Positions 3,145-36,621 of a stretch of 44,174 nucleotides of DNA are shown piece by piece. The stretch lies in the NCBI GenBank assembly GCA_023230325.1, contig JALNXN010000006.1, forward strand, positions 1-44,174, in the 5' to 3' direction. The translations under genes were made by a program, and so were the position numbers. Position 1 is the stretch's first letter. The number at the start of each line of letters is the position of its first letter. The notes beneath the pieces are model-generated. The model had not been told where the DNA came from. It worked only from the letters and a program-made list of their open reading frames with translations, and searched no databases. Source of the DNA: an archaeon. Its GTDB lineage: Archaea; Iainarchaeota; Iainarchaeia; Iainarchaeales; CSSED10-239.

Positions 3145-4677
3145 TTACTGAGCTTGGCCTTGCCCAAGTAATTGCTGATAAAGCTTGTTTAGTTCTTCAA
3201 TTTCATCATTATATTTTTCCATTACTGGATCTACCATTGCTTTTTGACCTAATTGTTCTCTAAGACTAAACAACAATTCATGTGTCTCTAAGTATTTTCC
3301 TTGTTTCTCTGCACATCTAGAAAATATTGCAGGGAATAATGCTGACATCTCATGAACAACAAAATCTTTAATTACTAGGTTTGCTTTATTGGCATCCACA
3401 TAGTTCTCTATAACCAAAGATTGTGTTTCTTGCTCAAATTTCGTACAGTATGGGCAATCATAATCTGTAAACACATAGATATTTACTTTTGCTTCAGGAT
3501 CCCCCATAACATAGTCTAACTCGTCAACCATGATATCATAGTTTAATAATTGATTTAGAGTAGTTATGTTTGCTGCAGAAATCAAATCAGAAACAACACT
3601 TGGAGACAACACATAACCATTAGTTGATGTCTCTACAAACAAATTTGTAAAAAAGTAAGATAGATTTTCATCAGTCATAATATCTAAACCCTCAATATTT
3701 CCATCTAAGTAGAAACCAGGAATCACAGTCAACCCAACTGCTTCAATCAAATCTCTTGCAAAAGGATCTTCATAAGATAAATAAACAACTTCTGTTTCTG
3801 AAAATAACTTGTTAAAAAATTCTTTAATCTCAGGGGTTAGTTGTTCAGAGCTTTTCATAAACTCAATTAACTCTGTAGTGTTGTCTTTAGTTATTTGATG
3901 TCTATCATTATATAAAATTGTTAATGTTGGTTCTGAATCTATATCAGATTTATATGATTTATTTTCATAGTTCCAATCAATAACAGGATCTGCTAATGCA
4001 AATTCTATTTTCTCAGAAACAAAGTTATAATCTTGAGCTCCATTTATAAAATAACCATTTACATAAATTCCAGGAGTCCCACTAACACCTAAATTTGTTG
4101 CTAAGAAAGAATCTGTTTGAATTTTCATAATTATGTCTGATGCTAAAACATTCATGTCAGGATCTGCATAATCATTTTCTAAAAGACATTGATCCATTTG
4201 TTCTGCATCTAAATCCAATTCTGTATATTTAGTTTCTAAAAAAGCAGTTTGTTTTTCTTTAACTTCTCTTAAAATCTTTAATTGCAATTCTAATGATTTT
4301 ACTTGAAATTCTTCTTGTGTAATTGTTGGAATTGTAGTGTTAGTATCTAGATTTGCATCAACAGGTACATTTGTGTCAACTGGAGGATTTGTGTCATTGT
4401 TTGCTGGTGTAAAAACAGATATTAAAACAATCACAATAATTAAAATCACAAGTATTAAAATTGTAATCAAGTCTTTCTTTTTTGAGAACACACAACTTTT
4501 TTTATCTTTACAGCTTTTATTTTCTGCAACTTTAGTATGTGTTACTTTAATATCTTTTTCTTTTCCTTTTTCTAACTTCTGATCAGAAGAAGGTTTATTT
4601 TCTAAATTATCTTTTTTAGAAGAAGTTTCTTTTAAATTTTCCTTCTTCTTTTTAATAATTTTCTTTTTTTTAACCAA
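3145..4677 (-). CDS. Membrane-anchored DsbA-like thiol oxidoreductase with permuted domain order
   Basis: This 510-residue protein has a Lys-rich N-terminus (1-68), one transmembrane helix (about 69-89) and an Asn/Thr/Pro-rich linker (90-120), so the rest should face outside. Residues 125-230 look like the second half of DsbA: a DQCL helix, then GVSGTPGIYVNG with the cis-proline loop at 200-203. Residues 247-350 look like a second thioredoxin-fold domain with an IPGFYLDG loop but no CxxC. Residues 391-475 look like the first half of DsbA: GDPEAKVNIYVFTDYDCPYC with the active site CPYC at 408-411, then RCAEKQGKYLETHELLF. DsbA halves thus occur in swapped order in one open frame. The start is TTG, with a strong AGGTGAT three bases upstream and no better ATG nearby. 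The expected role is disulfide formation or isomerisation in exported proteins. Confidence 0.8.
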   Translation of the reverse strand: MVKKKKIIKKKKENLKETSSKKDNLENKPSSDQKLEKGKEKDIKVTHTKVAENKSCKDKKSCVFSKKKDLITILILVILIIVIVLISVFTPANNDTNPPVDTNVPVDANLDTNTTIPTITQEEFQVKSLELQLKILREVKEKQTAFLETKYTELDLDAEQMDQCLLENDYADPDMNVLASDIIMKIQTDSFLATNLGVSGTPGIYVNGYFINGAQDYNFVSEKIEFALADPVIDWNYENKSYKSDIDSEPTLTILYNDRHQITKDNTTELIEFMKSSEQLTPEIKEFFNKLFSETEVVYLSYEDPFARDLIEAVGLTVIPGFYLDGNIEGLDIMTDENLSYFFTNLFVETSTNGYVLSPSVVSDLISAANITTLNQLLNYDIMVDELDYVMGDPEAKVNIYVFTDYDCPYCTKFEQETQSLVIENYVDANKANLVIKDFVVHEMSALFPAIFSRCAEKQGKYLETHELLFSLREQLGQKAMVDPVMEKYNDEIEELNKLYQQLLGQGQAQ

Positions 4678-5788: not shown

Positions 5789-6658
5789 ATGGAACTTTCA
5801 GACAATTTAAAAAAAATAATAAAAATAATTAATACTAAAAAGACTGTGTGCTTGTTAGCACCTGCCTTTCCTGTTGACTTTAAATACCCTGATATAATTA
5901 TTGATCTTAAAAAAATTGGGTTTTCTAAAATCCTAGAACTCACTTATGCTGCAAAATTAATAAGTATAAGGTATAGTAAGATTCTTAAAAGACTTCCAGA
6001 AAAACAATTTATCTGTGCTAATTGCCCAAGTGTTGTTAAGTATATAGAAAATAAATACCCACAGCATAAAGCTAAGATAATTAATGTGGCGTCTCCAATG
6101 ATAATCATGGGAAGATATTCACATGCTGAATACCCAAGCTATAAGACGATATTTGTTGGACCTTGCCTTTCTAAAAAACAAGAAGCTATTGAAAATCATG
6201 AGGTCGATTTTGCTATAACCTTTAAAGAATTACAAGAAATTTTTGATTATTATGCTGAAAAAAAGTTGTTTAAAAAAATTGACATAGACCCAAAGACTGT
6301 TGACTTTAATAAGCTATATAATGATTATACAAAAATCTATCCACTTTCAGGAGCTGTAGCAAAAACCATGAACTACAAAGAAATTGTAGAAAAGAAACAA
6401 GTAGTTATTGCTGATGGAATAAAAGGAATTGATTTGGCAATTAAAAAAATGGAGAAAAATAAAAATATTAGACTTTTAGATATTCTTTTTTGTGAAGGTG
6501 GCTGTATTGGTGGTCCAGGAATTATGTCAAAAGATTCACTTGAAGTAAAAAAAAAAAAAATTTTAGATTATAAAAAGGAATGTAAAAAAACACCTATGGG
6601 TGAACACTTTGGAAAATTTGAATATTATAAAGATCTAAAGCTTAGAAGAAAATTATAA
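5789..6658 (+). CDS. Stand-alone FeFe-hydrogenase-like H-cluster domain protein
   Basis: This 289-residue protein consists only of the catalytic H-domain of the iron-only hydrogenase large subunit. There is no N-terminal ferredoxin domain. The three H-cluster signatures are recognisable. L1 is CANCPSVV with ligand C79; N78 stands where canonical enzymes have the proton-relay Cys of TSCCP. L2 is GPCLSKKQE with C126 and the conserved Lys and Glu at +3 and +6. L3 is FCEGGCIGGPG with C235 and C239. All four cluster-binding cysteines are therefore kept. The family includes true FeFe hydrogenases, sensory variants and NARF/Nar1-type Fe-S proteins. Very short FeFe hydrogenases have been described in DPANN archaea. 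No HydE, HydF or HydG maturase is in the window, so hydrogenase activity is not proven. GGTAAT upstream supports the start. Confidence 0.8.
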   Translation: MELSDNLKKIIKIINTKKTVCLLAPAFPVDFKYPDIIIDLKKIGFSKILELTYAAKLISIRYSKILKRLPEKQFICANCPSVVKYIENKYPQHKAKIINVASPMIIMGRYSHAEYPSYKTIFVGPCLSKKQEAIENHEVDFAITFKELQEIFDYYAEKKLFKKIDIDPKTVDFNKLYNDYTKIYPLSGAVAKTMNYKEIVEKKQVVIADGIKGIDLAIKKMEKNKNIRLLDILFCEGGCIGGPGIMSKDSLEVKKKKILDYKKECKKTPMGEHFGKFEYYKDLKLRRKL

Positions 6659-6706: not shown

Positions 6707-7801
6707 TTAATCAACAACACCATTCTCAGTAACATTATATATTGCTTCACCATCTGGAAGAGAAGGAGAATCTACTAGTTTTGCAATCCTCTTTGAACCA
6801 GTTCCCTTTCTTAAATAAATTCTTGTCTTTGAGGCATGCTTTACAACATTACCCCCAATAGCATCTGTAGGGTCTCCAAAGAGAATGTCAGGTCTTGACA
6901 TAACCTGGTTGGTTACAAAGACAACAACATTATACAACTCTGCAACTTTCTGTAACAACCTCATATGTTGATTTAGCTTTTGTTGTCTGTCTGAAAGTTG
7001 CCCTCTACCAGTATACTCAGATCTAAATTGACTTGTTAAAGAATCCACAATCAATAATTTAACATTATGCTCCTTAATCAAATCAACGCTCTTTTCTGTA
7101 AGTAACATCTGATGGTTACTATTGTATGCTCTTGCAACATAAATATTTTTCATAATCTCATCAGGATCAACCCCTAAATGCTTAGAGATCTGTGCAACTC
7201 TTTCAGGTCTAAATGAATTTTCTGTATCAATATATAGAACTGCACCGCCTAGACCACCTTTGTCCTTAGGCAATTGAGCCATAACACAAAGTTGAAAACA
7301 CCACTGACTTTTACCAGAAGCAAACTTACCATACACTTCAGTTATTGATTGGCTCTCTATACCTCCACCTAAAAGTTCATCTAAAGACTCTGCACCTATT
7401 GATAACCTAGAGATTGTCTTTCTTTTTAATAAAATCTTGTCTGCACTCTCAAAACCCATGTCTAGAGAGTCTCTTGCAGCCTTAATAGCCTTAATGGCTG
7501 TGCCTTCCCCTAAACCAGCAACAGCTACAAGTTCCATTGGTGAAGCTACAGCTATAGCCTCATAAGAATCATAACCAGCTCCTCTTAGCTTCTCTGCAGA
7601 GGTAGGCCCTATCCCAGGGAGTTTGCCTATATCTTTAGGTTTAATTTTTTCTTTAAGTTTTTCCTCTTCTGTCTTTGGAGCATCTGTCTTAAAGTCATCA
7701 TCAACCTCTTGCTCAAAAGCCTCATCCTCTAAGTCATCCTCGTAAGTTTCATCAACAACTTCTTCTGATTCTTTTTCATCAAAATTATTTTTTTTTGCCA
7801 T
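6707..7801 (-). CDS. radA: DNA repair and recombination protein RadA
   Basis: The archaeal RecA/Rad51 recombinase, 364 residues from the chosen start. An acidic N-terminal extension (about 1-45) precedes the helix-hairpin-helix domain with LPGIGPTSAEKL (61-72). The ATPase core has Walker A GKFASGKS (158-165) and Walker B LLIVDSL, followed by the DNA-binding loops. It forms filaments on single-stranded DNA for strand exchange. The open frame extends 12 codons further upstream, but the ATG at 7801 is preceded by a clear AGGTGA, so that start is used. The acidic extension of about 35 residues before the usual RadA domain is longer than average. Confidence 0.97.
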   Translation of the reverse strand: MAKKNNFDEKESEEVVDETYEDDLEDEAFEQEVDDDFKTDAPKTEEEKLKEKIKPKDIGKLPGIGPTSAEKLRGAGYDSYEAIAVASPMELVAVAGLGEGTAIKAIKAARDSLDMGFESADKILLKRKTISRLSIGAESLDELLGGGIESQSITEVYGKFASGKSQWCFQLCVMAQLPKDKGGLGGAVLYIDTENSFRPERVAQISKHLGVDPDEIMKNIYVARAYNSNHQMLLTEKSVDLIKEHNVKLLIVDSLTSQFRSEYTGRGQLSDRQQKLNQHMRLLQKVAELYNVVVFVTNQVMSRPDILFGDPTDAIGGNVVKHASKTRIYLRKGTGSKRIAKLVDSPSLPDGEAIYNVTENGVVD

Positions 7802-8047
7802 ATGTTTTTCACCTTTTTTCCTTTCATCTTTTTTCACGTTTTATTTCTTGTGTTTCTCGTCTCACAAATCATTTTCCACAAGTAAGGTATTAAACTTGGG
7901 TTAACAATAATATTATGGTAAATAACTTATATATCTCTTTTGGAGGGGGGTAGTTTGCCGAGAAAGAAACCTAACTAAAAACCTATAAATAGTTTTCTAT
8001 ATAATATAAAATAGAAACAAATATAAAAAAATAAAAAAAGATTAAAA
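7802..8047. promoter_or_regulatory. Divergent promoter region, radA / PEP-synthase-like gene
   Basis: For radA (minus strand) the likely TATA box is GATATATAAG, plus-strand 7926-7935. For the plus-strand gene, CCTATAAATAG at 7981-7991 and TATATAATATAAA near 8000-8012 are candidates. Between them lies the G-rich element at 7938-7970. Confidence 0.5.
7938..7970 (+). promoter_or_regulatory. G-rich intergenic element, copy 1 (upstream of radA)
   Basis: The segment starts TTTTGGAGGGGGGTAGTTTG and ends CCGAGAAAGAAAC. It matches the segment at 36668-36700 upstream of mcm with two gapped positions and a few substitutions. It sits just upstream of the radA TATA box. It may be an operator for replication and repair genes or a remnant of a dispersed repeat. 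Confidence 0.5.
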
Positions 8048-17531: not shown

Positions 17532-18101
17532 ATGAAAAAAGAAAATTTTGAAATAATTGTTTTTGGAAGAGGTGGACAAGGTGCAAAAACCTGTGCTCAA
17601 ATTATTGCAGAAAGTGCTATGCTTTCTGGAAATGAGATTCAAGGCTTTCCAGAGTATGGCCCTGAAAGAAGGGGTGCACCTGTTAGAGCATTTGTTAGAA
17701 TTTCAAATAAAAAGATTAGAATCCACGAACCTGTTACCAACCCTGATATAGTTTTGGTTATTGATTATAAGTTATTTGAAACTATGCCTGAACTAAAAAA
17801 TTATAATTGCCCAATAATTATTAATACACATAAAGAAAAAAGTTATTTTAAAAATTTAAAAAGTAAAGAACTATACACAATTGATGGAAGTGCCATTGCA
17901 CTTGAAGAAATTAAAATTGATAACCCTAATATTGTCTTGATTGGAAGCCTTCTAAAATATTTAAAAAATAATAATTTAGAAAAATTAGTTGGATATCAAG
18001 ATGTTAAAAAATCAATTGAAATTCAATTTGAAAAAAAAGGTAAAAGACAAATAATTGAACCTAATTTAAATTGTTTAAAAAAAGGTTTTGAAAAAATATA
18101 A
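17532..18101 (+). CDS. porG: Pyruvate:ferredoxin oxidoreductase, gamma subunit
   Basis: 189 residues. The start IIVFGRGGQGAKTCAQIIAE is the family glycine-rich motif, followed by EYGPERRGAPVRAFVRIS, typical of the gamma domain of 2-oxoacid:ferredoxin oxidoreductases. The complex oxidises pyruvate with CoA to acetyl-CoA and CO2 and reduces ferredoxin. This is the first gene of porGDAB, the usual archaeal order, which supports pyruvate rather than another 2-oxoacid. The ATG at 17532 follows a weak AGG. Confidence 0.93.
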   Translation: MKKENFEIIVFGRGGQGAKTCAQIIAESAMLSGNEIQGFPEYGPERRGAPVRAFVRISNKKIRIHEPVTNPDIVLVIDYKLFETMPELKNYNCPIIINTHKEKSYFKNLKSKELYTIDGSAIALEEIKIDNPNIVLIGSLLKYLKNNNLEKLVGYQDVKKSIEIQFEKKGKRQIIEPNLNCLKKGFEKI

Positions 18102-18140: not shown

Positions 18141-18428
18141 ATGGCTACTAAAAAGAAATATAAAAAACTACCAATTGGAGGAACACTTCCAGGAGGAACC
18201 TCAACAGAAACAAAAACAGGACATTGGAGATCTGAAAAACCGATTTGGGATAAAAAAAGATGTATCCAATGTATGATGTGCTATATTGCCTGTCCAGAAG
18301 ATTGTATAATTGCAAAGAAGATGAAAAAAGGAATACAGAGAAGCGAAACTGATTTAAAATTTTGTAAAGGATGCGGGATCTGTGCCCAAGTGTGCCCTGT
18401 AAAATGTATAGAAATGGTTAAAGAATAA
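18141..18428 (+). CDS. porD: Pyruvate:ferredoxin oxidoreductase, delta subunit (2x 4Fe-4S)
   Basis: 95 residues with two ferredoxin-type cluster motifs, CIQCMMCYIACP and CKGCGICAQVCP, carrying eight cysteines for two 4Fe-4S clusters. The N-terminal segment with LPIGGTLPGGTS is usual for PorD. It passes electrons from the TPP site in PorB to free ferredoxin. It lies 39 bases after porG. Confidence 0.95.
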   Translation: MATKKKYKKLPIGGTLPGGTSTETKTGHWRSEKPIWDKKRCIQCMMCYIACPEDCIIAKKMKKGIQRSETDLKFCKGCGICAQVCPVKCIEMVKE

Positions 18429-18474: not shown

Positions 18475-19635
18475 ATGAAAAATAAAAAAATTGCATTAAA
18501 TGGAGGAGAAGCAATCTCTTATGCCTTAAAACAAATTGAACTTGATGTCTTTGCAATGTACCCAATAACTCCACAAACCCCAATTATTGAAAGTTATGCA
18601 AAATTTGCTGCAGATGGAGAAGTAGATTGTGAGATTGTTAGAGTTGAGTCTGAACATTCTGCACTTTCAGTAGTTGTTGGTGCTGCATCAGCAGGGGCAA
18701 GAGCAGTAACAGCCACAGCTTCGCAAGGTCTGTTATATATGTTTGAAATGCTTGCATTAACTTCAGGACTAAGACTTCCAATTGTTATGCCTGTTGTTAA
18801 TAGAGCAACATCTGCTCCAATTAATATTCATTGTGACCATTCAGATTCTATGTCTGCAATTGATCAAGGTTGGATGCAAGTCTATTGTGAAGATGCACAA
18901 GAAGCATATGCTATGACTTTATTTTCTACAAAGCTTGCAGAAAAAGTATATTTGCCAATTATGATTTGCTCAGATGGTTTTGTTACATCCCATAATCTTG
19001 AGACAATTGAAGTCTTTGATGATAAGGTTGTTAAAAAGTTTGTTGGAGAGTATAAAGGTCCTTACAATTTACTTAACACAGAAAAACCAATCTCAATTGG
19101 GCCACTTGCACTTCCTGATTATTTCTTTGAAATAAAAGTGCAGATGTTTGATGCTTTTAAAAGTGTGGAAAAAGAATATAAAGAAATTTCAAAAGACTTT
19201 GAAAAATTTTTTGGAGAAAAAATAAATATTTGTGAAGATTATTTTGCTTCAAAATCAGAAATTGTAATTGTTGTTTTGTCATCAACTGCTCAAAGCACAA
19301 AAGATGTTATTGATAAACTTAGACTTGAAAAAAAATCAGTAGGTTTACTTAGACCTATTCTTTTTAGACCATTTATCTATAAAGAGTATGCAAAATATTT
19401 AAAGAAAGCAAAAACTGTTATTGTTCTTGATAGGTCTGAGGGGCCTGGTAGTCATGCACCTCTCTTTAAAGACATATCTTTGAGTGTGATTAATGAAAAG
19501 AATAAACCAAATGTTTACTCTTATGTCTTTGGACTTGGTGGAAGAGACCTTTATCAAAAGGATATTGAAAAATTATTAAATGATTTTTTAAATGGAAAAA
19601 TAAACAAAAATAAATATCTTGGACTAAGAAAATGA
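18475..19635 (+). CDS. porA: Pyruvate:ferredoxin oxidoreductase, alpha subunit
   Basis: 386 residues of the PorA family: the opening NGGEAISYALKQIELDVFAMYPITPQTPIIE, stated here as residues 8-38, RVESEHSALSVVVGA with the Glu that activates TPP, and TATASQGLLYM. The C-terminal domain with LRPILFRPF and VLDRSEGPGS is typical. The subunit contributes half of the TPP pocket and the CoA-binding region. Length is normal and no insertion is seen, in contrast to porB. Confidence 0.95.
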   Translation: MKNKKIALNGGEAISYALKQIELDVFAMYPITPQTPIIESYAKFAADGEVDCEIVRVESEHSALSVVVGAASAGARAVTATASQGLLYMFEMLALTSGLRLPIVMPVVNRATSAPINIHCDHSDSMSAIDQGWMQVYCEDAQEAYAMTLFSTKLAEKVYLPIMICSDGFVTSHNLETIEVFDDKVVKKFVGEYKGPYNLLNTEKPISIGPLALPDYFFEIKVQMFDAFKSVEKEYKEISKDFEKFFGEKINICEDYFASKSEIVIVVLSSTAQSTKDVIDKLRLEKKSVGLLRPILFRPFIYKEYAKYLKKAKTVIVLDRSEGPGSHAPLFKDISLSVINEKNKPNVYSYVFGLGGRDLYQKDIEKLLNDFLNGKINKNKYLGLRK

Positions 19636-19676: not shown

Positions 19677-22600
19677 ATGAATAATATAGAAGTTGCAGAA
19701 AGAATAAATAAAGAAAAAAAAATAGTAGCAGGACATAGAACCTGTGCAGGGTGCCCAATAACAATTATTTTAAGAACAGCTTTGGCAACCCAAGACAGCC
19801 CAGTAGTTGTTGCTAGTGCAACATCCTGTGCAGAAGTTACAACAACTATTTATCCTTATACCTCTTGGAATGTTCCTTGGATTCATTCTGTTTTTGCAAA
19901 TGTTGCAGCTACAATTTCTGGAGTGGAGTCAGCTTATAATGTGCTTAAAAGGAAGGGGAGAATAAAAAAAGAAATTAAATTCTTAGCATTTGCAGGGGAT
20001 GGTGGATGTTACATACCAGGCACAAAAATATTAACAGAAGATGGATTTAAAAACGTAGAAAAAATTACTAAAAAAGATGTCATTTGGTCAGTAAATCCAA
20101 AAAATAAACAAATGGAAAAATCAACAATTATAAAAATGCACAAATATAATTATAAAGAAAAAATAGTTAGTGTTAATCATAACTTTGTTCACTTTGATGT
20201 ATCACTACAACATAATGTGCCTATATATAATAAATTAAATAATAAAATTGAAGTGATTAAAGCACAAGAACTTTTAAATTACGGTAGGAGTGATAAAGTA
20301 AACATTATTACTGGTGACTTAATATGGAAAGGAAAAAATAAAACTTTTTTTGAATTACCATCTGTAAAATATAATAAACTATCTGCAAATAAAAAAATTG
20401 TTAAAAAAATTAAAATGGAAGACTGGTTAGAATTTTTTGGATACTGGATATCAAAAGGACATCTATCAAAAAAATCTGAAAAAAGAGAAAAATATAATGT
20501 ATATATATCTCAAACAAAAAAAGAATATGTTAAAAAAGTGCACAACTGCTTAAATAATACTAATTTAAATAACTGGTACAGCCAAGATAGATTCATTATA
20601 AATAATCAACAATTATGGACTTATTTAACACAATTTGGAAAAGCAAAAGATAAATTTATCCCTAAAGAATTCAAAGAATTATCTAATAAACATCTAAAAA
20701 TATTATTAGATGCATTAATAGTAGGAGATGGAACTATTATAAAAAGAAAAAAAACAATTGCTTATTCTTATAGTACAACATCCCCAAAATTAAAAGATGA
20801 TGTGATAGAAATTGCTTTAAAATTAGGATATAGGGCACATTTAAATACAAGTAAAAGAAAAGGACGTTATGAATATGCAATATCTCTTTCAAATTACAAA
20901 CCTACTAGTCTTGCAAATTTAAGAAGAAAACAAATTTCTAGTTATGATTATGATGGTGAAATATATTGTCCTGAATTAAAAAAAAATCATATAATGATTA
21001 TTGAAAAAGATGGCAGAATTAGTACAAACATGAATAGTTTTGACATAGGTTTACAGTCACTTTCAGGAGCTCTTGAAAGAGGACATGATTTTGTTTATAT
21101 CTGTTATGATAATGAAGGGTATATGAATTGTTTGTCTACAGAATCATTGATTATGACTGAAACTGGATTAAAAAAAATTACTGAAATTAAAAAAGGAGAA
21201 AAAGTTTGGGCCTTTGATCAAAAAAGTTATCACCCGGTACTTAAAAAATGCACAGGTGTATTTGATAATGGAAGAAAAAAAGTATATGAAATAGAAACTA
21301 TTCATCAAAATATTAAAGCAACTTCAAATCATCCTTTTTTAACATTAAAAAGAAATGGAAGGGGAAAAGAAAGTGAACTAATATGGAAAACAGTTTCAGA
21401 ACTTAAACAAAATGATGAAATTGTAACTATTAAAAGATTATACGATAAAGGAAAAACATTTAAATTTGAAAAAATAAAATTAGCTGAAAAAGGAAAAAAT
21501 AAAAAAAATAATATAAACAAAGTTAAAATTCCAACAGAGTCTAGTAAAGAACTAATGTTATGGCTAGGATTATACTTAGAAAATGGCTGGATTAGAGAAG
21601 AAAAAGGAGAAATTGGTTTTGCACTACCAGAAAACACAAAAGAAAGAACTAAGTTAATCAAAATACACAAAAAAATATTTGACCAAAGTAATATCTCTAA
21701 AGACAAATATTATATTTACTTTAATTCAGTAAATATTAGTAAATTTATTAATTCACTTGAATTTAAACAAGGAGCAAAAAATAAAACAATACCATCCTGG
21801 GTTTTCACATTACCATCTAATCAGAAAAAAGAATTTATAAAAGGATTAATAATGTCTGATGGGCATATTTATGAAAAGAAAAAAGAAAGTTACAGATATG
21901 TGTCAGTAAATAAAGATTTAATTGAAAGATTAAGATTGTTATTACAAACCATGGATTATAGAGTTGGAAAAATTACAACTCAAAAAAAGAAAAAAGGAAC
22001 ATTAATAGTAAATAGACCATTATTAAAGGATTGTGAATATTATTCAATTTGTTTTTCAGAAAAAGATAAATGGAACTTAGAAAAATACAGTGCCCAATAT
22101 AAATATCAAAATTTTTTAATAAAAAATAAATACTTTGAAATTAAAAAAATAAAAAACATAATTCCAAAAAGTATTGAACAAACTTTAGATCTTAGAATAG
22201 AAGGAGAACATAACTTTATTGCTAATGGAATTGTTGTACACAACACTGGTAACCAACGTTCTTCAGCTACACCCTATGGAGCTTCAACAACAACCACACC
22301 TTCAGGAAAGGTAAGCGTTGGGAAGGAAAAATTCCAAAAGGACTTAGCAGCAATTTCAATTGCTCATAACATCCCATATGTAGCAACAGCTAATCCTTGG
22401 AACCAAGTTGACTTATATAATAAGGTTAAAAAAGCATTTGATAAAAAAGGACCTGCATTAATCTTAGTCTTTGCTGCTTGTCCTACAAACATGAAAGCAC
22501 CATCAAGCCAAACAATCAACATTTCAAAGTTAGCAACTCAAACTAATTTTTGGCCACTTTATGAGTTTGAAGATGGGAAATACACAATCAACTACAAACA

Positions 22601-22748
22601 AGATAAAAGGCCACCAATTGAAGAACTTTTAAAAACTCAAACAAAATTTAAAGAAGTTTTAAAAAATAAAGAAGAGATTAAAAAAATACAAGAACATGTT
22701 GATGAAGAATTTAGAAAATTATTAGAAAAAGAAAAACTTACAAAATAG
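19677..22748 (+). CDS. porB: Pyruvate:ferredoxin oxidoreductase, beta subunit, with two inteins
   Basis: The 1023-residue frame is three exteins and two inteins. Extein 1 (1-110) has GHRTCAGC and ends LAFAGDGG. Intein 1 is C111-N453. Extein 2 (454-484) starts SFDIGLQSLSGALERGHDF and ends NEGYMN. Intein 2 is C485-N856. Extein 3 (857-1023) starts TGNQRSSATPYGAS. Joined exteins give 308 residues, the normal PorB length, and read straight through family sequence. The spliced protein binds thiamine pyrophosphate through GDG...N, and the two inteins sit exactly at the two ends of that motif. CAGC, C51 and a later Cys fit the proximal 4Fe-4S cluster. Without splicing of both inteins the enzyme cannot be active. 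Confidence 0.95.
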   Translation: MNNIEVAERINKEKKIVAGHRTCAGCPITIILRTALATQDSPVVVASATSCAEVTTTIYPYTSWNVPWIHSVFANVAATISGVESAYNVLKRKGRIKKEIKFLAFAGDGGCYIPGTKILTEDGFKNVEKITKKDVIWSVNPKNKQMEKSTIIKMHKYNYKEKIVSVNHNFVHFDVSLQHNVPIYNKLNNKIEVIKAQELLNYGRSDKVNIITGDLIWKGKNKTFFELPSVKYNKLSANKKIVKKIKMEDWLEFFGYWISKGHLSKKSEKREKYNVYISQTKKEYVKKVHNCLNNTNLNNWYSQDRFIINNQQLWTYLTQFGKAKDKFIPKEFKELSNKHLKILLDALIVGDGTIIKRKKTIAYSYSTTSPKLKDDVIEIALKLGYRAHLNTSKRKGRYEYAISLSNYKPTSLANLRRKQISSYDYDGEIYCPELKKNHIMIIEKDGRISTNMNSFDIGLQSLSGALERGHDFVYICYDNEGYMNCLSTESLIMTETGLKKITEIKKGEKVWAFDQKSYHPVLKKCTGVFDNGRKKVYEIETIHQNIKATSNHPFLTLKRNGRGKESELIWKTVSELKQNDEIVTIKRLYDKGKTFKFEKIKLAEKGKNKKNNINKVKIPTESSKELMLWLGLYLENGWIREEKGEIGFALPENTKERTKLIKIHKKIFDQSNISKDKYYIYFNSVNISKFINSLEFKQGAKNKTIPSWVFTLPSNQKKEFIKGLIMSDGHIYEKKKESYRYVSVNKDLIERLRLLLQTMDYRVGKITTQKKKKGTLIVNRPLLKDCEYYSICFSEKDKWNLEKYSAQYKYQNFLIKNKYFEIKKIKNIIPKSIEQTLDLRIEGEHNFIANGIVVHNTGNQRSSATPYGASTTTTPSGKVSVGKEKFQKDLAAISIAHNIPYVATANPWNQVDLYNKVKKAFDKKGPALILVFAACPTNMKAPSSQTINISKLATQTNFWPLYEFEDGKYTINYKQDKRPPIEELLKTQTKFKEVLKNKEEIKKIQEHVDEEFRKLLEKEKLTK
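20007..21035 (+). other. Intein 1 in PorB (after GDGG)
   Basis: 343 residues, C111-N453 of the precursor. Block A is CYIPGTKILTEDGF with the nucleophilic Cys1. The splice end is GRISTNMN, followed by S+1. The penultimate residue is Met rather than the usual His; the region reads GEIYCPELKKNHIMIIEKDG, as in inteins with a non-canonical C-terminus. The middle holds a LAGLIDADG (DOD) endonuclease region with motifs EFFGYWISKGHL and LLDALIVGDGTI. In the first motif Lys replaces the catalytic acid before Gly, so DNA cutting is doubtful. Codon and base use is even more A-rich than in the exteins. Confidence 0.9.
21129..22244 (+). other. Intein 2 in PorB (after NEGYMN)
   Basis: 372 residues, C485-N856 of the precursor. 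Block A is CLSTESLIMTETG. Block B is ATSNHPFLTL with its conserved His. Blocks F and G are TLDLRIEGEHNFIANGIVVHN (two parts, 836-856), ending in canonical HN and followed by T+1. DOD motifs are WLGLYLENGWI and FIKGLIMSDGHI. The first has Asn where the catalytic acid belongs and the second keeps Asp. Splicing residues look intact, so this intein should splice even if the nuclease is dead. Confidence 0.93.
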
Positions 22749-26738: not shown

Positions 26739-26796
26739 ATTGACATTTGTAAACATAAACAACAATTTTTTATATAGTTTGTTGATTAATGTAAAT

Positions 26797-28632
26797 ATGT
26801 TTAAATTAATTGGGTTTGTTAATGCATCGTGGGCACCTCTAAAATGGGTTGTTGGGTTTGAAAATGTAGGTTATGAGTGGACTAGTAACGTAGTTTACGC
26901 ATGGCTTTATACTTTTGATCGTGGTTGTGAGTCTTTACCCCCTTCCTCCTCCTCCCTTTCCCTTCCTTCCTCTATCTTTAAATCTTTATCTTCTCATAAA
27001 AGCCTATATTTTGCATCAAGAAAAAGAATTTTAAGAAAAATTAAAGTAAATAACATTAAACTTTTAGATCCAAGAACAATTTTAATATACGATATTAATT
27101 CTAAAGAAACTATATTTGAAAAAAGAGAATTTTTTAAAATACAAAAAATAAAAAGAACAGAAGAAAAAAAACTATCAACAATAAAAGAAACTTTAGAAAA
27201 AGCAGTTGTTAAAAGAATTTCTAAAAAAGGAAGTGTTGGAGTTTTGTTTAGTGGAGGAATTGATTCTTTATTAATTATTATGATACTACTTAAATTAAAA
27301 ATTCCATTTGCAGCATATTTTGCACACTCAAAAGAATATGGAAAGGATAAAGATTTGGTTTTTGTAAAAGAACTTTCAAAGTTATATAAATTTAAATTAA
27401 AAATTGCTTGTGTAGATAAGAAGGATGTAGAAAAAGAAATTCCAAAAATTGTGAAAATAATAGATAGTGCAAATCCAATTGCTGTTGGGGTTGGTTTACC
27501 TATCTATTTTGCAAGTAGACTTGCTAGAAAAGATGGAATTGAAATCCTTTTCTCAGGACTTGGAGCAGATGAGTTGTTTGCTGGGTATTTTAAATTTAGA
27601 GAATCAAAAAACATTTCTAAAGACACAATTGACCTTTTACATAAGATGTATAGAAGTGATCTTTTAAGAGATACACTAATAACAAAAAATCTTGATATAC
27701 AAATTAAATTTCCATATTTAGATAAAGACATGATAACTTTTGCTTTATCTTTGGAAGATGAAGACAAAATAAATAAGTTGACCAACAAAGTGATCTTAAG
27801 AAACTTAGGGAAAACTTATAGGTTACCTGAAAAATATTATTTAAGAAAAAAAGTTGCTGCACAGTATGGTTCTGGGTTTGATAAGGTTCTTGAAAAATTA
27901 ACAAAGAAAAATAAATTTACAAATAAGTCTGAATACCTAAATAGTTTTTTAAAAGAAAAAAGAAAAAAAATAAAACTTGTAAGCCTATATTCAGGAGGTA
28001 AAGATTCAAATCTATCTTTATGGCTTATGCAAAAACAAGGTTATGAAGTTTCTTGTTTAATTTCTGTAATTCCTGAAAATAAAGACTCTTACATGTATCA
28101 AAAACCAGAACTAGAAATTATAAAAAAGCAAGCAAAGGCTCTAGACATTCCATTAATTACCAAACACACAAAAGGAGAAAAGGAAAAAGAACTCCTAGTC
28201 TTAAAAGCAGCAATAGTTGAAGCTAAAGAAAAATATGATATTAAAGGAGTTGTCTCAGGAGCACTTTATAGTAATTATCAAAAAGAAAGAATACAAAGAA
28301 TCTGTGATGAACTTAACTTAAAGATGTTTACTCCTTTGTGGCACAAAGACCAAAGAGAGGAACTTAAAGAATTATTAGACAACAACTTTGAAATAATGAT
28401 AGTTAAAATTGCAGGACTTGGGTTAACTATAAAATGGTTAGGCAAGATTTTAAATTTAAAAGACTTAGAAGAACTTAAAAAATTAAATAAGAAATATGGA
28501 TTTAATGTTGCTGGGGAAGGTGGAGAATATGAGACAATTGTTTTAAATGCACCTAACTTTAAAAAGAAAATAAAAATTCCAAAATTTAAGAAGATTTTAG
28601 AAAATGAGTTTACTGGTCATTTAGAATTTTAA
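26797..28632 (+). CDS. dph6: Asparagine-synthetase-like domain fused to diphthine-ammonia ligase (DPH6)
   Basis: 611 residues with two PP-loop ATP pyrophosphatase domains. Residues 1-120 look like a shrunken glutaminase remnant: MFKLIGFVN resembles MCGIAGF of AsnB, but the catalytic Cys2 is Phe, and most of the domain is replaced by a Trp-rich and then Ser/Pro-rich stretch. Residues 145-380 are an asparagine-synthetase synthase domain with SGGIDS (152-157) and FSGLGADELFAGY. Residues 392-611 are DPH6 with SLYSGGKDSN (SGGKDS 399-404) and GEGGEYET (573-580), which amidates diphthine on elongation factor 2 using ammonia and ATP. The loss of Cys2 suggests free ammonia is used. The frame is open further upstream only from a TTG. 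The ATG at 26797 aligns with the AsnB start. Confidence 0.85.
   Translation: MFKLIGFVNASWAPLKWVVGFENVGYEWTSNVVYAWLYTFDRGCESLPPSSSSLSLPSSIFKSLSSHKSLYFASRKRILRKIKVNNIKLLDPRTILIYDINSKETIFEKREFFKIQKIKRTEEKKLSTIKETLEKAVVKRISKKGSVGVLFSGGIDSLLIIMILLKLKIPFAAYFAHSKEYGKDKDLVFVKELSKLYKFKLKIACVDKKDVEKEIPKIVKIIDSANPIAVGVGLPIYFASRLARKDGIEILFSGLGADELFAGYFKFRESKNISKDTIDLLHKMYRSDLLRDTLITKNLDIQIKFPYLDKDMITFALSLEDEDKINKLTNKVILRNLGKTYRLPEKYYLRKKVAAQYGSGFDKVLEKLTKKNKFTNKSEYLNSFLKEKRKKIKLVSLYSGGKDSNLSLWLMQKQGYEVSCLISVIPENKDSYMYQKPELEIIKKQAKALDIPLITKHTKGEKEKELLVLKAAIVEAKEKYDIKGVVSGALYSNYQKERIQRICDELNLKMFTPLWHKDQREELKELLDNNFEIMIVKIAGLGLTIKWLGKILNLKDLEELKKLNKKYGFNVAGEGGEYETIVLNAPNFKKKIKIPKFKKILENEFTGHLEF
26938..26973 (+). 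other. Homopyrimidine C/T tract inside the coding region
   Basis: 36 bases of only C and T, C-rich, in otherwise very AT-rich DNA. It encodes part of the PPSSSSLSLPSS stretch of the AsnB-DPH6 protein. Confidence 0.8.
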
Positions 28633-34473: not shown

Positions 34474-36621
34474 TTAAAAAGAATCAGGTTCTGTTGCTTT
34501 TAACAAACCATTTCTTGGCTCATAGATGTCTCCAATCTTTTTAAGCTTAATAACAGCATCTTGAGCCTTCTCTCTTGTAATATTATTCTCCTCAGCAAAA
34601 TCATACAACTCCTTTGTAGGAACTGGCTCTCCATTAGCTGAAAGATCTTTTATAAATTTTAAAATAGTCTTGACTAAGTTTCTTTCAGACTGAGACTGGC
34701 CTGTCTGAAGAATATCAATATCTATTTTTCCTGTTTCTTTGTCAAGTGCTGTTTGCTCTAAAGAAGTTTTAAAAATCCTAATCGCTCTCTCAGCATCCTC
34801 TTCTTCAATTATGTTTTTTAATTTTATTTTTGCACTTGCTTCTGAAAGCCTTATTAGTCCCTCTAGCTGTCTTGGAGTTGCAGAGAAGCTTCTTGAGTTT
34901 CTACCAAGATCTCTTAACTCCACATAATAGTTTAGAATCTTTTCAGAAGCCTTAGCTGTTAACACTGGCTTAATGTTCTGTCTTGAAAAGGCAACATACT
35001 TTTTATAAATATTTGGTTCAATTGCTGGAAGTATCTTTTTTTCTATCTCTTCAAGGTCCTCTTTAGATATAGAGTTTGATTTTTCTGAATGAGACATTTT
35101 CTGTGCGAGCTCTTGGGTCTTTAAAACATGCTTTGCAATATTTAAGTCCATGGTTCTGTCTAAGACATCAGGAATTACAAAATATAGATCAAAACGAGAA
35201 ATTAAAGAAAAAGGAAGATCAATTTGTTCAATTGGGTTTTTGTAAGGATCAAAACGATTGTATTTTGGATTTGCAGCAGCTAAAATTGAGGTGTCTGCCT
35301 TAAATTTACTGTATAGTCCAGCTTTAGAAACAGAGACAGTTGATTGAGCCATAGCTTCATGTAAAGAACTACGGTCATCCGGGTTGATTTTGTCAAACTC
35401 ATCAATCATTGCCATCCCTCCACTTGCTAAAATCACTGCTCCTGCCTTTAGGGTCCAACCACCTTCTCCAAACTCATCCTTAACAGCACTCACAGTTAAT
35501 CCAGCTCCAGAAACTGTCTTTCCAGCAACATACACACTCTTTGGGGCAAGGATGTTTGCATACTCTAAAAGTTTAGATTTACCAGTAGATGGGTCACCAA
35601 CCAAAAGCACATGGATATTTCCTCTTAGCTTTTGTTTAGCAATCTCTTTTTTCACACCACCAAACATCTGTAAGGTTATTGCTTCTTTTACAACATCATG
35701 TCCAAAGATGTTTGGAGCAATTGACTTTGATAATAGGTCATAGATGTCTGCTTTTTTTGAAAGTTCAATTATTTCTTTTTCCTCATCAATTGAGATCTTT
35801 AGTTCTTCATATTCTTGATCAACTTTTAGAATATGATTTGCAACAATATATTTTCCAAAGATGTTTGTGTCTCCCTTTGGAGGCCTTAACTTTAAAACTC
35901 CAGTTACAACAATTTTGTCTCCTGCAGAAACTCTATTAACTAAATCTTCAGAAAGATAAACATCAATGTTTGCAGCTTGGTCAGAACCTTTTAAACTCTC
36001 TAATGGCTCTTGCATTTGTATTTTTTGGTAATCAATAAATTTTGATTGATCTAGATCAATATCAAACTCCCTACCCTTACATTCTCCACACATGATTGGT
36101 TTTACAAGTTGTTGGGTTTTTTGACTTAAGTTCACACCAGTCCCACATTTCCTGCAAACAAAATGAGCGACAGTTAATTTTTCTAATCTCTCAGTAATCA
36201 ACCTAATTGTTCCTTCTAAAGAGGTTAACTTTGCAATATGTATAGCACCAACATCCCTTATTGCCACCCTATACTCTTCAGGCAGATTAAAAAATCTAAC
36301 AATTGGTGCGAAATTAGACTCAACCTCAGAATCTAAAATTCCTATATCCATTTTATTGATTGCAGCATTTGCAGCTTCAGTTATCAAGTGTGGATTTTCA
36401 AGTAATTTTTCAGAAACATTTAGATCAAAATCCTCTAACTTTTTATAATCAATGTCAAAGGATCTTTCTTGAGGGTAAATAGAGGCTAGAACTTCAATTT
36501 CTTTTTTATAAACTTCCTCAAAGAATTCAAAAAGAATGTCTATGTATTCTTCTATTGCTAAATTTTTAGAGTCTACAAAATCAATGTCTTGTAGTTCTTT
36601 GTCTAAGTCTATTTCTGCCAT
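34474..36621 (-). CDS. mcm: Replicative DNA helicase MCM
   Basis: 715 residues. The N-terminal domain carries a zinc ribbon (C156, C159, C178, C181). The AAA+ core has Walker A GDPSTGKS (342-349), Walker B MIDEFD (405-410), sensor 1 AAANPKY and arginine finger SRFD (475-478). A winged-helix domain closes the protein (about 640-715). It unwinds DNA at the replication fork as a hexamer. GTGAGAA upstream supports the start. The element at 36668-36700 and RPA lie upstream. Confidence 0.97.
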   Translation of the reverse strand: MAEIDLDKELQDIDFVDSKNLAIEEYIDILFEFFEEVYKKEIEVLASIYPQERSFDIDYKKLEDFDLNVSEKLLENPHLITEAANAAINKMDIGILDSEVESNFAPIVRFFNLPEEYRVAIRDVGAIHIAKLTSLEGTIRLITERLEKLTVAHFVCRKCGTGVNLSQKTQQLVKPIMCGECKGREFDIDLDQSKFIDYQKIQMQEPLESLKGSDQAANIDVYLSEDLVNRVSAGDKIVVTGVLKLRPPKGDTNIFGKYIVANHILKVDQEYEELKISIDEEKEIIELSKKADIYDLLSKSIAPNIFGHDVVKEAITLQMFGGVKKEIAKQKLRGNIHVLLVGDPSTGKSKLLEYANILAPKSVYVAGKTVSGAGLTVSAVKDEFGEGGWTLKAGAVILASGGMAMIDEFDKINPDDRSSLHEAMAQSTVSVSKAGLYSKFKADTSILAAANPKYNRFDPYKNPIEQIDLPFSLISRFDLYFVIPDVLDRTMDLNIAKHVLKTQELAQKMSHSEKSNSISKEDLEEIEKKILPAIEPNIYKKYVAFSRQNIKPVLTAKASEKILNYYVELRDLGRNSRSFSATPRQLEGLIRLSEASAKIKLKNIIEEEDAERAIRIFKTSLEQTALDKETGKIDIDILQTGQSQSERNLVKTILKFIKDLSANGEPVPTKELYDFAEENNITREKAQDAVIKLKKIGDIYEPRNGLLKATEPDSF

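Follow-up and report, generated by a model that had tools for sequence, protein, structure and literature searches.

The gene for the beta subunit of pyruvate:ferredoxin oxidoreductase (PFOR), porB, of an archaeon of the Iainarchaeota (lineage CSSED10-239; contig JALNXN010000006.1 of assembly GCA_023230325.1) is interrupted by two segments that read as inteins, here called a and b, lying at the two ends of a single cofactor-binding loop. The window analysed is the 44,174-nucleotide stretch of this contig in which the gene stands. The two are very likely independently acquired LAGLIDADG homing inteins that excise themselves from the host protein and persist as mobile parasites, b probably having been acquired first and a by later homing, after which the endonucleases of both decayed.

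The gene is an uninterrupted open reading frame (ORF) of 1023 codons (19677-22748, + strand) with no stop inside, and its exteins joined make 308 residues. A phmmer search against PDB sequences placed the three extein pieces collinearly on the beta subunits of Methanosarcina PFOR (9bt4_C) and of oxalate oxidoreductase (OOR; 5c4i_C), with the inserts falling between them, and the fold predicted for the exteins is that of a PFOR/OOR beta subunit (top structural matches, 5exd and 9bt4). The top model for the interrupted precursor is NCBIfam PRK11865, although it stays under its cutoff (310 of 405 bits). Judged from these matches, the product is PorB, the beta subunit of a four-subunit PFOR, with pyruvate assigned as the substrate by similarity.

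By nucleophile, final Asn, +1 residue and predicted Hint fold, both segments are assigned to the class 1 inteins. The preliminary description of this DNA had placed them after GDGG and NEGYMN; the junctions proved exact to the residue, with splice residues at the bounds (Table 1), and the 31-residue mini-extein and 308-residue spliced product that it gave were both confirmed in length. The Pfam domain Intein_splicing is found over intein b only (57.3 bits against a cutoff of 35.8), while in intein a Hom_end barely passes (23.9 bits, cutoff 21.1) and Hint_2 stays under its cutoff. Endonuclease domains recognized by Pfam in the precursor are LAGLIDADG_3, in two stretches, and Hom_end. Intein a is further supported by relatives at the identical site and by its predicted structure, both inserts being modelled as intein (Hint) folds into which an endonuclease domain is inserted. 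Cys1 is present in all 8 site-a and all 114 site-b inteins compared, which end in MN or GN at site a and in HN at site b. A TxxH block B and a penultimate His are usual motifs of class 1 inteins; block B reads TSNH in intein b and SLQH in intein a, and the penultimate residue is His in b versus Met in a. Duplication of one intein as the origin of both is unsupported, the window's pair aligning over just 33 residues at 30% identity. TliVMA (7qsu/7qss), an archaeal VMA intein with a homing endonuclease, is 18-21% identical to the window's inteins and occupies another host gene and site.

The two insertions bracket residues of the active site. In the oxidoreductase StOFOR, according to the available part of PMC5020499, GDG (89-91b) and Asn118b are Mg ligands, and Leu123b matches Asn996 of DaPFOR, a pocket residue that rotates upon pyruvate binding. 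Position matching to PMC5020499 puts the window's GDG at extein residues 107-109 and Asn136 at GDG+27, a spacing equal to that from 91b to 118b. Asn136 would be the Mg-binding Asn, the counterpart of Asn118b, and Asn141, the last residue ahead of intein b, would correspond to the substrate-pocket residue Leu123b/Asn996. An alignment with DaPFOR pairs Asn141 with chain residue 995 in sequential count, presumably one off the entry's own numbering. On this placement the inteins do lie, as had been proposed, at both ends of the loop for thiamine pyrophosphate (TPP) and Mg. Because they sit directly at TPP/Mg and substrate residues, the precursor should be inactive before splicing, and it is reasonable to suppose that, for the window's allele, pyruvate metabolism has to wait until both inteins have spliced.

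PorB appears to be a widespread intein host, already present in databases and undescribed in the literature searched. The best 120 of 223 matches among precursor-length proteins were classified, the window's own allele (P0001) included: 111 carry b only, 6 carry a only, 2 carry both (P0001 and P0020) and one (P0087) carries b and an insert at a third site. P0001 (1023 aa, 10 member sequences, on a 13309-base contig) is one residue off the window, at aa 165 in intein a, and may come from the same or a related sample. In P0087 (1231 aa), which has intein b too, a 555-aa insert with a Cys start and an Asn/Cys end lies at extein residue ~132/133, 9 residues before site b; as judged from its position and ends, this is a third PorB insertion site, within the mini-extein, making at least three in the TPP-binding loop. 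A search centred on intein a returned 39 proteins, 9 of which have the PorB domain PF02775 (P0010, P0001, P0093, P0015, P0046, P0089, P0121, P0024 and the partial P0122); the other 30 match at 37% identity or less and are without that domain. P0020 was missed by this search, and its intein a belongs to another lineage. Site a thus hosts two distinct intein lineages, that of P0020 being 49% alike to the intein of locus L157 and 33% identical to intein a of the window.

Scanning the GTDB genome collection with intein b turned up 67 loci; site b of PorB accounts for 55 of them (L001-L047 and L049-L056; 3 of them end before the PorB N-terminus and L056 is broken between frames). Archaeal carriers comprise Diapherotrites/ainarchaeum, Micrarchaeota, Aenigmarchaeota, Woesearchaeota, Altiarchaeales, Hadesarchaea, Bathyarchaeia, Heimdallarchaeota and Methanophagales, and bacterial ones include Omnitrophota, Aerophobetes, Patescibacteria/Parcubacteria, Cloacimonadota, Poribacteria, Clostridia and Vermiphilus. 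None of the 55 loci has a match to intein a of the window at E below 1e-3, the contigs of L043, L045 and L053 being without site a. Endonuclease-free mini-inteins of 146-203 aa occupy site b in seven loci (L047, L049-L052, L054 and L055), from bacteria and one Heimdallarchaeota genome. In L056, of the Methanophagales, the PorB intein b (~4001-4530) is split across two frames with a stop between, which reflects either fracture or decay of a mini-intein or a fault in the assembly. TopoVI-B of the window shares 79% identity with its counterpart in genomes G015 and G016, members of the G001 phylum set. To that set also belong G005, the source genome of Diapherotrites record L032, and loci with PorB exteins identical to those of ainarchaeum or Diapherotrites records (L002, L041 and L046), so that a Diapherotrites/Iainarchaeota archaeon is the most likely source of the window. 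The set counts 87 genomes, and the precursor has a match at E 1e-15 in 59 of them. As read from the rows, 13 of these have an intein at site b (4 as partial frames), 1 has one at site a and 41 show an uninterrupted match of PorB length, part of which may be paralogous 2-oxoacid oxidoreductases; in the other 4 the match is a fragment or lies solely in other genes. In the G007 phylum (156 genomes) 13 match at E 1e-45, with site b occupied in 3, both sites in 0, 9 uninterrupted and 1 match in another gene.

More distant relatives occur elsewhere. In the G001 phylum set, relatives of intein a in other genes (L162 and L168-L172) follow ...LTG, ...EMG, ...GPN and ...EWT, the hosts being by eye, for example, NrdD-like reductase and ATP-grasp/PurD-like proteins. 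The Woesearchaeota locus L060 (3200-5875) has two tandem intein-like matches at ~30% identity and no PorB extein match. Viral contigs held 112 relatives in a scan with the intein-b alignment, and in the 80 of these listed the top rows are 23-29% identical over full length and reach 53% only over short segments; intein a as a single query, sensitive to close relatives only, matched once, at 35%, in an ORF that is glycosyltransferase-like by eye. Viral carriage of close relatives was set aside, such relatives being found in cellular records only.

Occupancy of the sites turns over among nearly identical genes: alleles with 98-99% identical exteins carry a, b or nothing. Intein-free porB alleles, which the preliminary description had proposed to look for in related genomes, exist with up to 99.4% extein identity to an occupied allele, P0015 (a) differing from the intein-free P0161 at 2 of 312 extein residues; P0013 (b) differs from P0161 at 6 of 308, and P0005 (b) from the intein-free P0160 at 2 of 305. 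Exteins of P0121 (a), P0020 (a and b) and P0119 (b) are 83-88% identical. In the best 120 of at least 8000 matches examined for intein-free forms, the nearest full-length one to the window is P0153, at 75% identity, and there is none among the window's close relatives P0002, P0003 and P0008.

An 85-row extein tree comprised the window, 22 of the 120 listed proteins and genome loci; L009, L010, L029, L043, L045, L053, L056, L149, L152, L158, L160, L161, L173, L174 and L175 were omitted as broken, truncated at a contig end or duplicating other rows. On this tree the occupancy of site a, with 9 carriers, changes 9 times and that of site b 12 times. A 63-row tree of the wider clade, made without the partial P0181, has 6 changes at site a, with 7 carriers, and 14 at site b. 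Those 63 rows comprise 37 free, 19 b, 5 a and 2 a+b alleles, with no clear association or exclusion by eye in a sample biased by how rows were found. Intein a of the window is sister to that of P0010 (support 100/99), and the extein is sister to that of the b-only P0002 (96/84); a clade of the window and P0010 exteins is rejected (approximately unbiased test on 30 of the 63 rows, p-AU 2.3e-8). The window's intein b, in a quick tree, also pairs with that of P0002 (SH-like approximate likelihood ratio test, SH-aLRT, 99). The near-identical exteins of differing occupancy, together with the conflict between intein-a and extein trees, argue for ordinary homing mobility.

The endonucleases of the window's pair are probably degenerate and inactive, one conserved acid having been lost from each at motif 1 (Table 1). 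The motif 1 Glu missing from intein a is found also in P0121 and P0122; the motif 2 Asp is retained by both window inteins, and all four motif acids are retained in P0020, the other a+b allele. With the motif 1 acid gone from each, the window's pair seems to be mobile no longer; in most relatives the motifs are intact.

The following history is proposed. As their anatomy suggests, each intein would splice by the class 1 route, with an acyl shift at Cys1, transfer to Ser454 (a) or Thr857 (b) and Asn cyclisation, to yield the 308-residue subunit. An active endonuclease would cleave the loop sequence of an allele that is empty, and repair templated by the occupied allele would copy the intein in. 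Intein b was probably first in the lineage, as its sister P0002 carries b only, and a would have arrived later through homing from another lineage. Since b was kept, the conversion tract would have ended inside the 93-nt mini-extein. Afterwards each endonuclease would have lost one catalytic-type acid, as expected after fixation.

A trace of that conversion may be present beside site a, where 6 of the 12 window-lineage changes since P0002/P0008 fall at extein residues 76-112. At those six sites the window is matched by the a-carriers P0024 at 4 and P0010 at 3, and by 12 other rows at 0-2; VLKRK (extein 89-93) is found in 3 of 10 a-carriers. These changes fit co-conversion of the flanking extein and are suggestive only. 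Several points weigh against the proposed history. The clustering is weak in a scan with column-variability weights (p 0.046, the stretch length having been picked after looking), the p of 0.00015 for the fixed stretch is post hoc, and VLKRK occurs too in 2 of 293 other rows, its association with a (Fisher 2.5e-4) being uncorrected for kinship. Homing is read from protein sequences, and the order of arrival is drawn by parsimony, so that loss of a in P0002 is possible. The penultimate His absent from intein a is missing as well from the 7 other site-a inteins, which have Met or Gly. Finally, intein-b relatives cluster largely by lineage, as their exteins do, and part of the spread of b may therefore be vertical or with the whole gene.

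In a regulatory account, which takes up the gating suggested in the preliminary description, splicing of one or both inteins would depend on permissive conditions (redox, temperature or cofactor) and so switch pyruvate oxidation post-translationally, the dead endonucleases being a mark of domestication. Insertion right at TPP/Mg and substrate residues, leaving an inactive precursor, agrees with it, as do the persistence of the endonuclease-free mini-inteins at site b and the conditional splicing known elsewhere (available part of PMC5790916). However, selfish inteins would be expected to insert at active sites and to show decay of their endonucleases without any regulation, and fast occupancy turnover among exteins of 98-99% identity indicates that neither intein is needed or conserved family-wide; such a gate is very unlikely in the window, and as an essential function of the family it is ruled out by the intein-free allele 99.4% identical to an occupied one. 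We consider very unlikely a composite scheme in which the TPP loop is a cross-domain hotspot with at least three sites in 31 residues, the double allele arose by conversion ending in the mini-extein, and the dead inteins are kept as a conditional switch of pyruvate oxidation.

Horizontal transfer of whole intein-bearing porB genes, with the inteins as passengers and no intein-specific homing, would account for an extein tree that mixes phyla, the Vermiphilus locus L005 standing beside the Omnitrophota locus L008, both with b. It is highly improbable in view of the conflict between the window's intein-a and extein trees, the 9 changes of a for 9 carriers, and the inteins a of P0046, P0089 and P0093, which are 62-67% identical to that of the window while their exteins are just 46-51% identical. 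That the double allele is chimeric, an a-allele and a b-allele having been merged in the metagenome, might be suspected from the existence of just two a+b alleles among the 120 listed and of both single-intein alleles in relatives. Yet the second record, P0001, though perhaps from the same sample, lies one residue apart, the unrelated a+b allele P0020 exists, and P0002 is the partner of the window in the trees of intein b and of the extein alike; the chimera is extremely improbable. Independent acquisition by homing remains the preferred reading.

The por genes are ordered porC-porD-porA-porB, porB being last, with those for the alpha, gamma and delta subunits adjacent (Table 1). G+C content is 23.3% and 23.9% in the inteins, 32-36% in the exteins, 28.3% in the window and 26.7% in porC, and the low values of the inteins are not diagnostic of origin. 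RadA and MCM are classic archaeal intein hosts; in the window RadA (6707-7837, - strand, 376 aa) and MCM (34474-36621, - strand, 715 aa) are of ordinary length with no intein domain, in contrast to PorB with its two. A 289-aa protein (5789-6658, + strand) has only the C-terminal [FeFe]-hydrogenase large-subunit domain (PF02906), with Cys motifs that look reduced by eye, and might be a minimal hydrogenase that the Por complex supplies. At 26740-28632 (+ strand) a 630-aa fusion joins asparagine-synthase-like and diphthamide-synthase (PF01902) domains.

Table 1. Positions of the porB segments, the altered endonuclease motifs and the other por genes in the window
Feature	Position	Strand	Description
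porC/porG, gamma subunit (POR family)	17532..18101	+	TIGR02175
porD, delta subunit (2x[4Fe-4S])	18141..18428	+	TIGR02179
porA, alpha subunit	18475..19635	+	PF01855, PF17147
PorB N-extein	19677..20006	+	aa 1-110, C-terminal ...FAGDGG
Intein a (343 aa)	20007..21035	+	aa 111-453; GDGG/C...MN/S; Cys1, Hint splicing halves, LAGLIDADG endonuclease insert, final Asn, +1 Ser
Intein a, LAGLIDADG motif 1	20454..20456	+	Lys at intein residue 150; Glu in 7/7 other site-a inteins compared
Mini-extein (31 aa, SFDIG...NEGYMN)	21036..21128	+	aa 454-484; putative Mg-binding Asn and substrate-pocket Asn inside
Intein b (372 aa)	21129..22244	+	aa 485-856; GYMN/C...HN/T; Cys1, TxxH block B, LAGLIDADG endonuclease insert, HN end, +1 Thr
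Intein b, LAGLIDADG motif 1	21582..21584	+	Asn at intein residue 152; Asp in 108/114 site-b inteins
PorB C-extein	22245..22748	+	aa 857-1023 and stop, starts TGNQRSS

The preliminary description had not counted PorB among the common intein hosts and had called two inteins in one metabolic oxidoreductase subunit, at the ends of a single cofactor loop, unusual. That PorB is an unusual host is not supported: site b of PorB makes up 55 of the 67 intein-b loci, and both sites are found occupied repeatedly among the 120 listed proteins. Multi-intein genes are common in some archaea, with 41 in Halobacteriales and 47 in Thermococcales (Table 1 of PMC10643990, a source available in part). That survey, in the same part, covers only 2 DPANN genomes, neither with a multi-intein gene. 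The reservation that PorB inteins might already be reported at the same two sites holds for the databases, and no paper on them was found. Open-licence papers yielded no description, though the spelling 'pyruvate:ferredoxin' may escape the search and print elsewhere is possible; PorB inteins go unmentioned in the intein passages of PMC12713403, PMC3655853, PMC2718504, PMC3087415, PMC4853749 and PMC3189178 and at the key words of reviews. Two database-annotated proteins, P0007 and P0016 (JGI 'pyruvate/2-oxoacid:ferredoxin oxidoreductase beta subunit/intein/homing endonuclease'), share host and site b, with one intein each. The closest parallel is MCM-a/MCM-d of Haloferacales, described in the available part of PMC10643990: two LAGLIDADG inteins at neighbouring sites of one conserved gene, independently gained and lost, with relatives that have single-intein and empty alleles. 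The haloarchaeal a and d inteins home singly and co-homing is inefficient, the paper having obtained no support for it. Their host is a replicative helicase, and their endonucleases were shown to be active and their sites tested in vivo, whereas PorB belongs to a metabolic oxidoreductase and its two inteins have endonucleases of degenerate appearance.

The double-intein PorB is a new case of known biology, which limits the surprise; what is of interest is the cross-domain intein hotspot in PorB, where a single cofactor loop has three sites. PorB appears to be an intein host outside replication and repair, in DPANN, Heimdallarchaeota, Methanophagales, Omnitrophota, Aerophobetes and Patescibacteria. 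Its exteins could be used to test the effects of splicing on a central metabolic enzyme, and its near-identical alleles with a, b or neither provide a natural experiment on what inteins cost their hosts and on how neighbouring homing sites interfere with each other.
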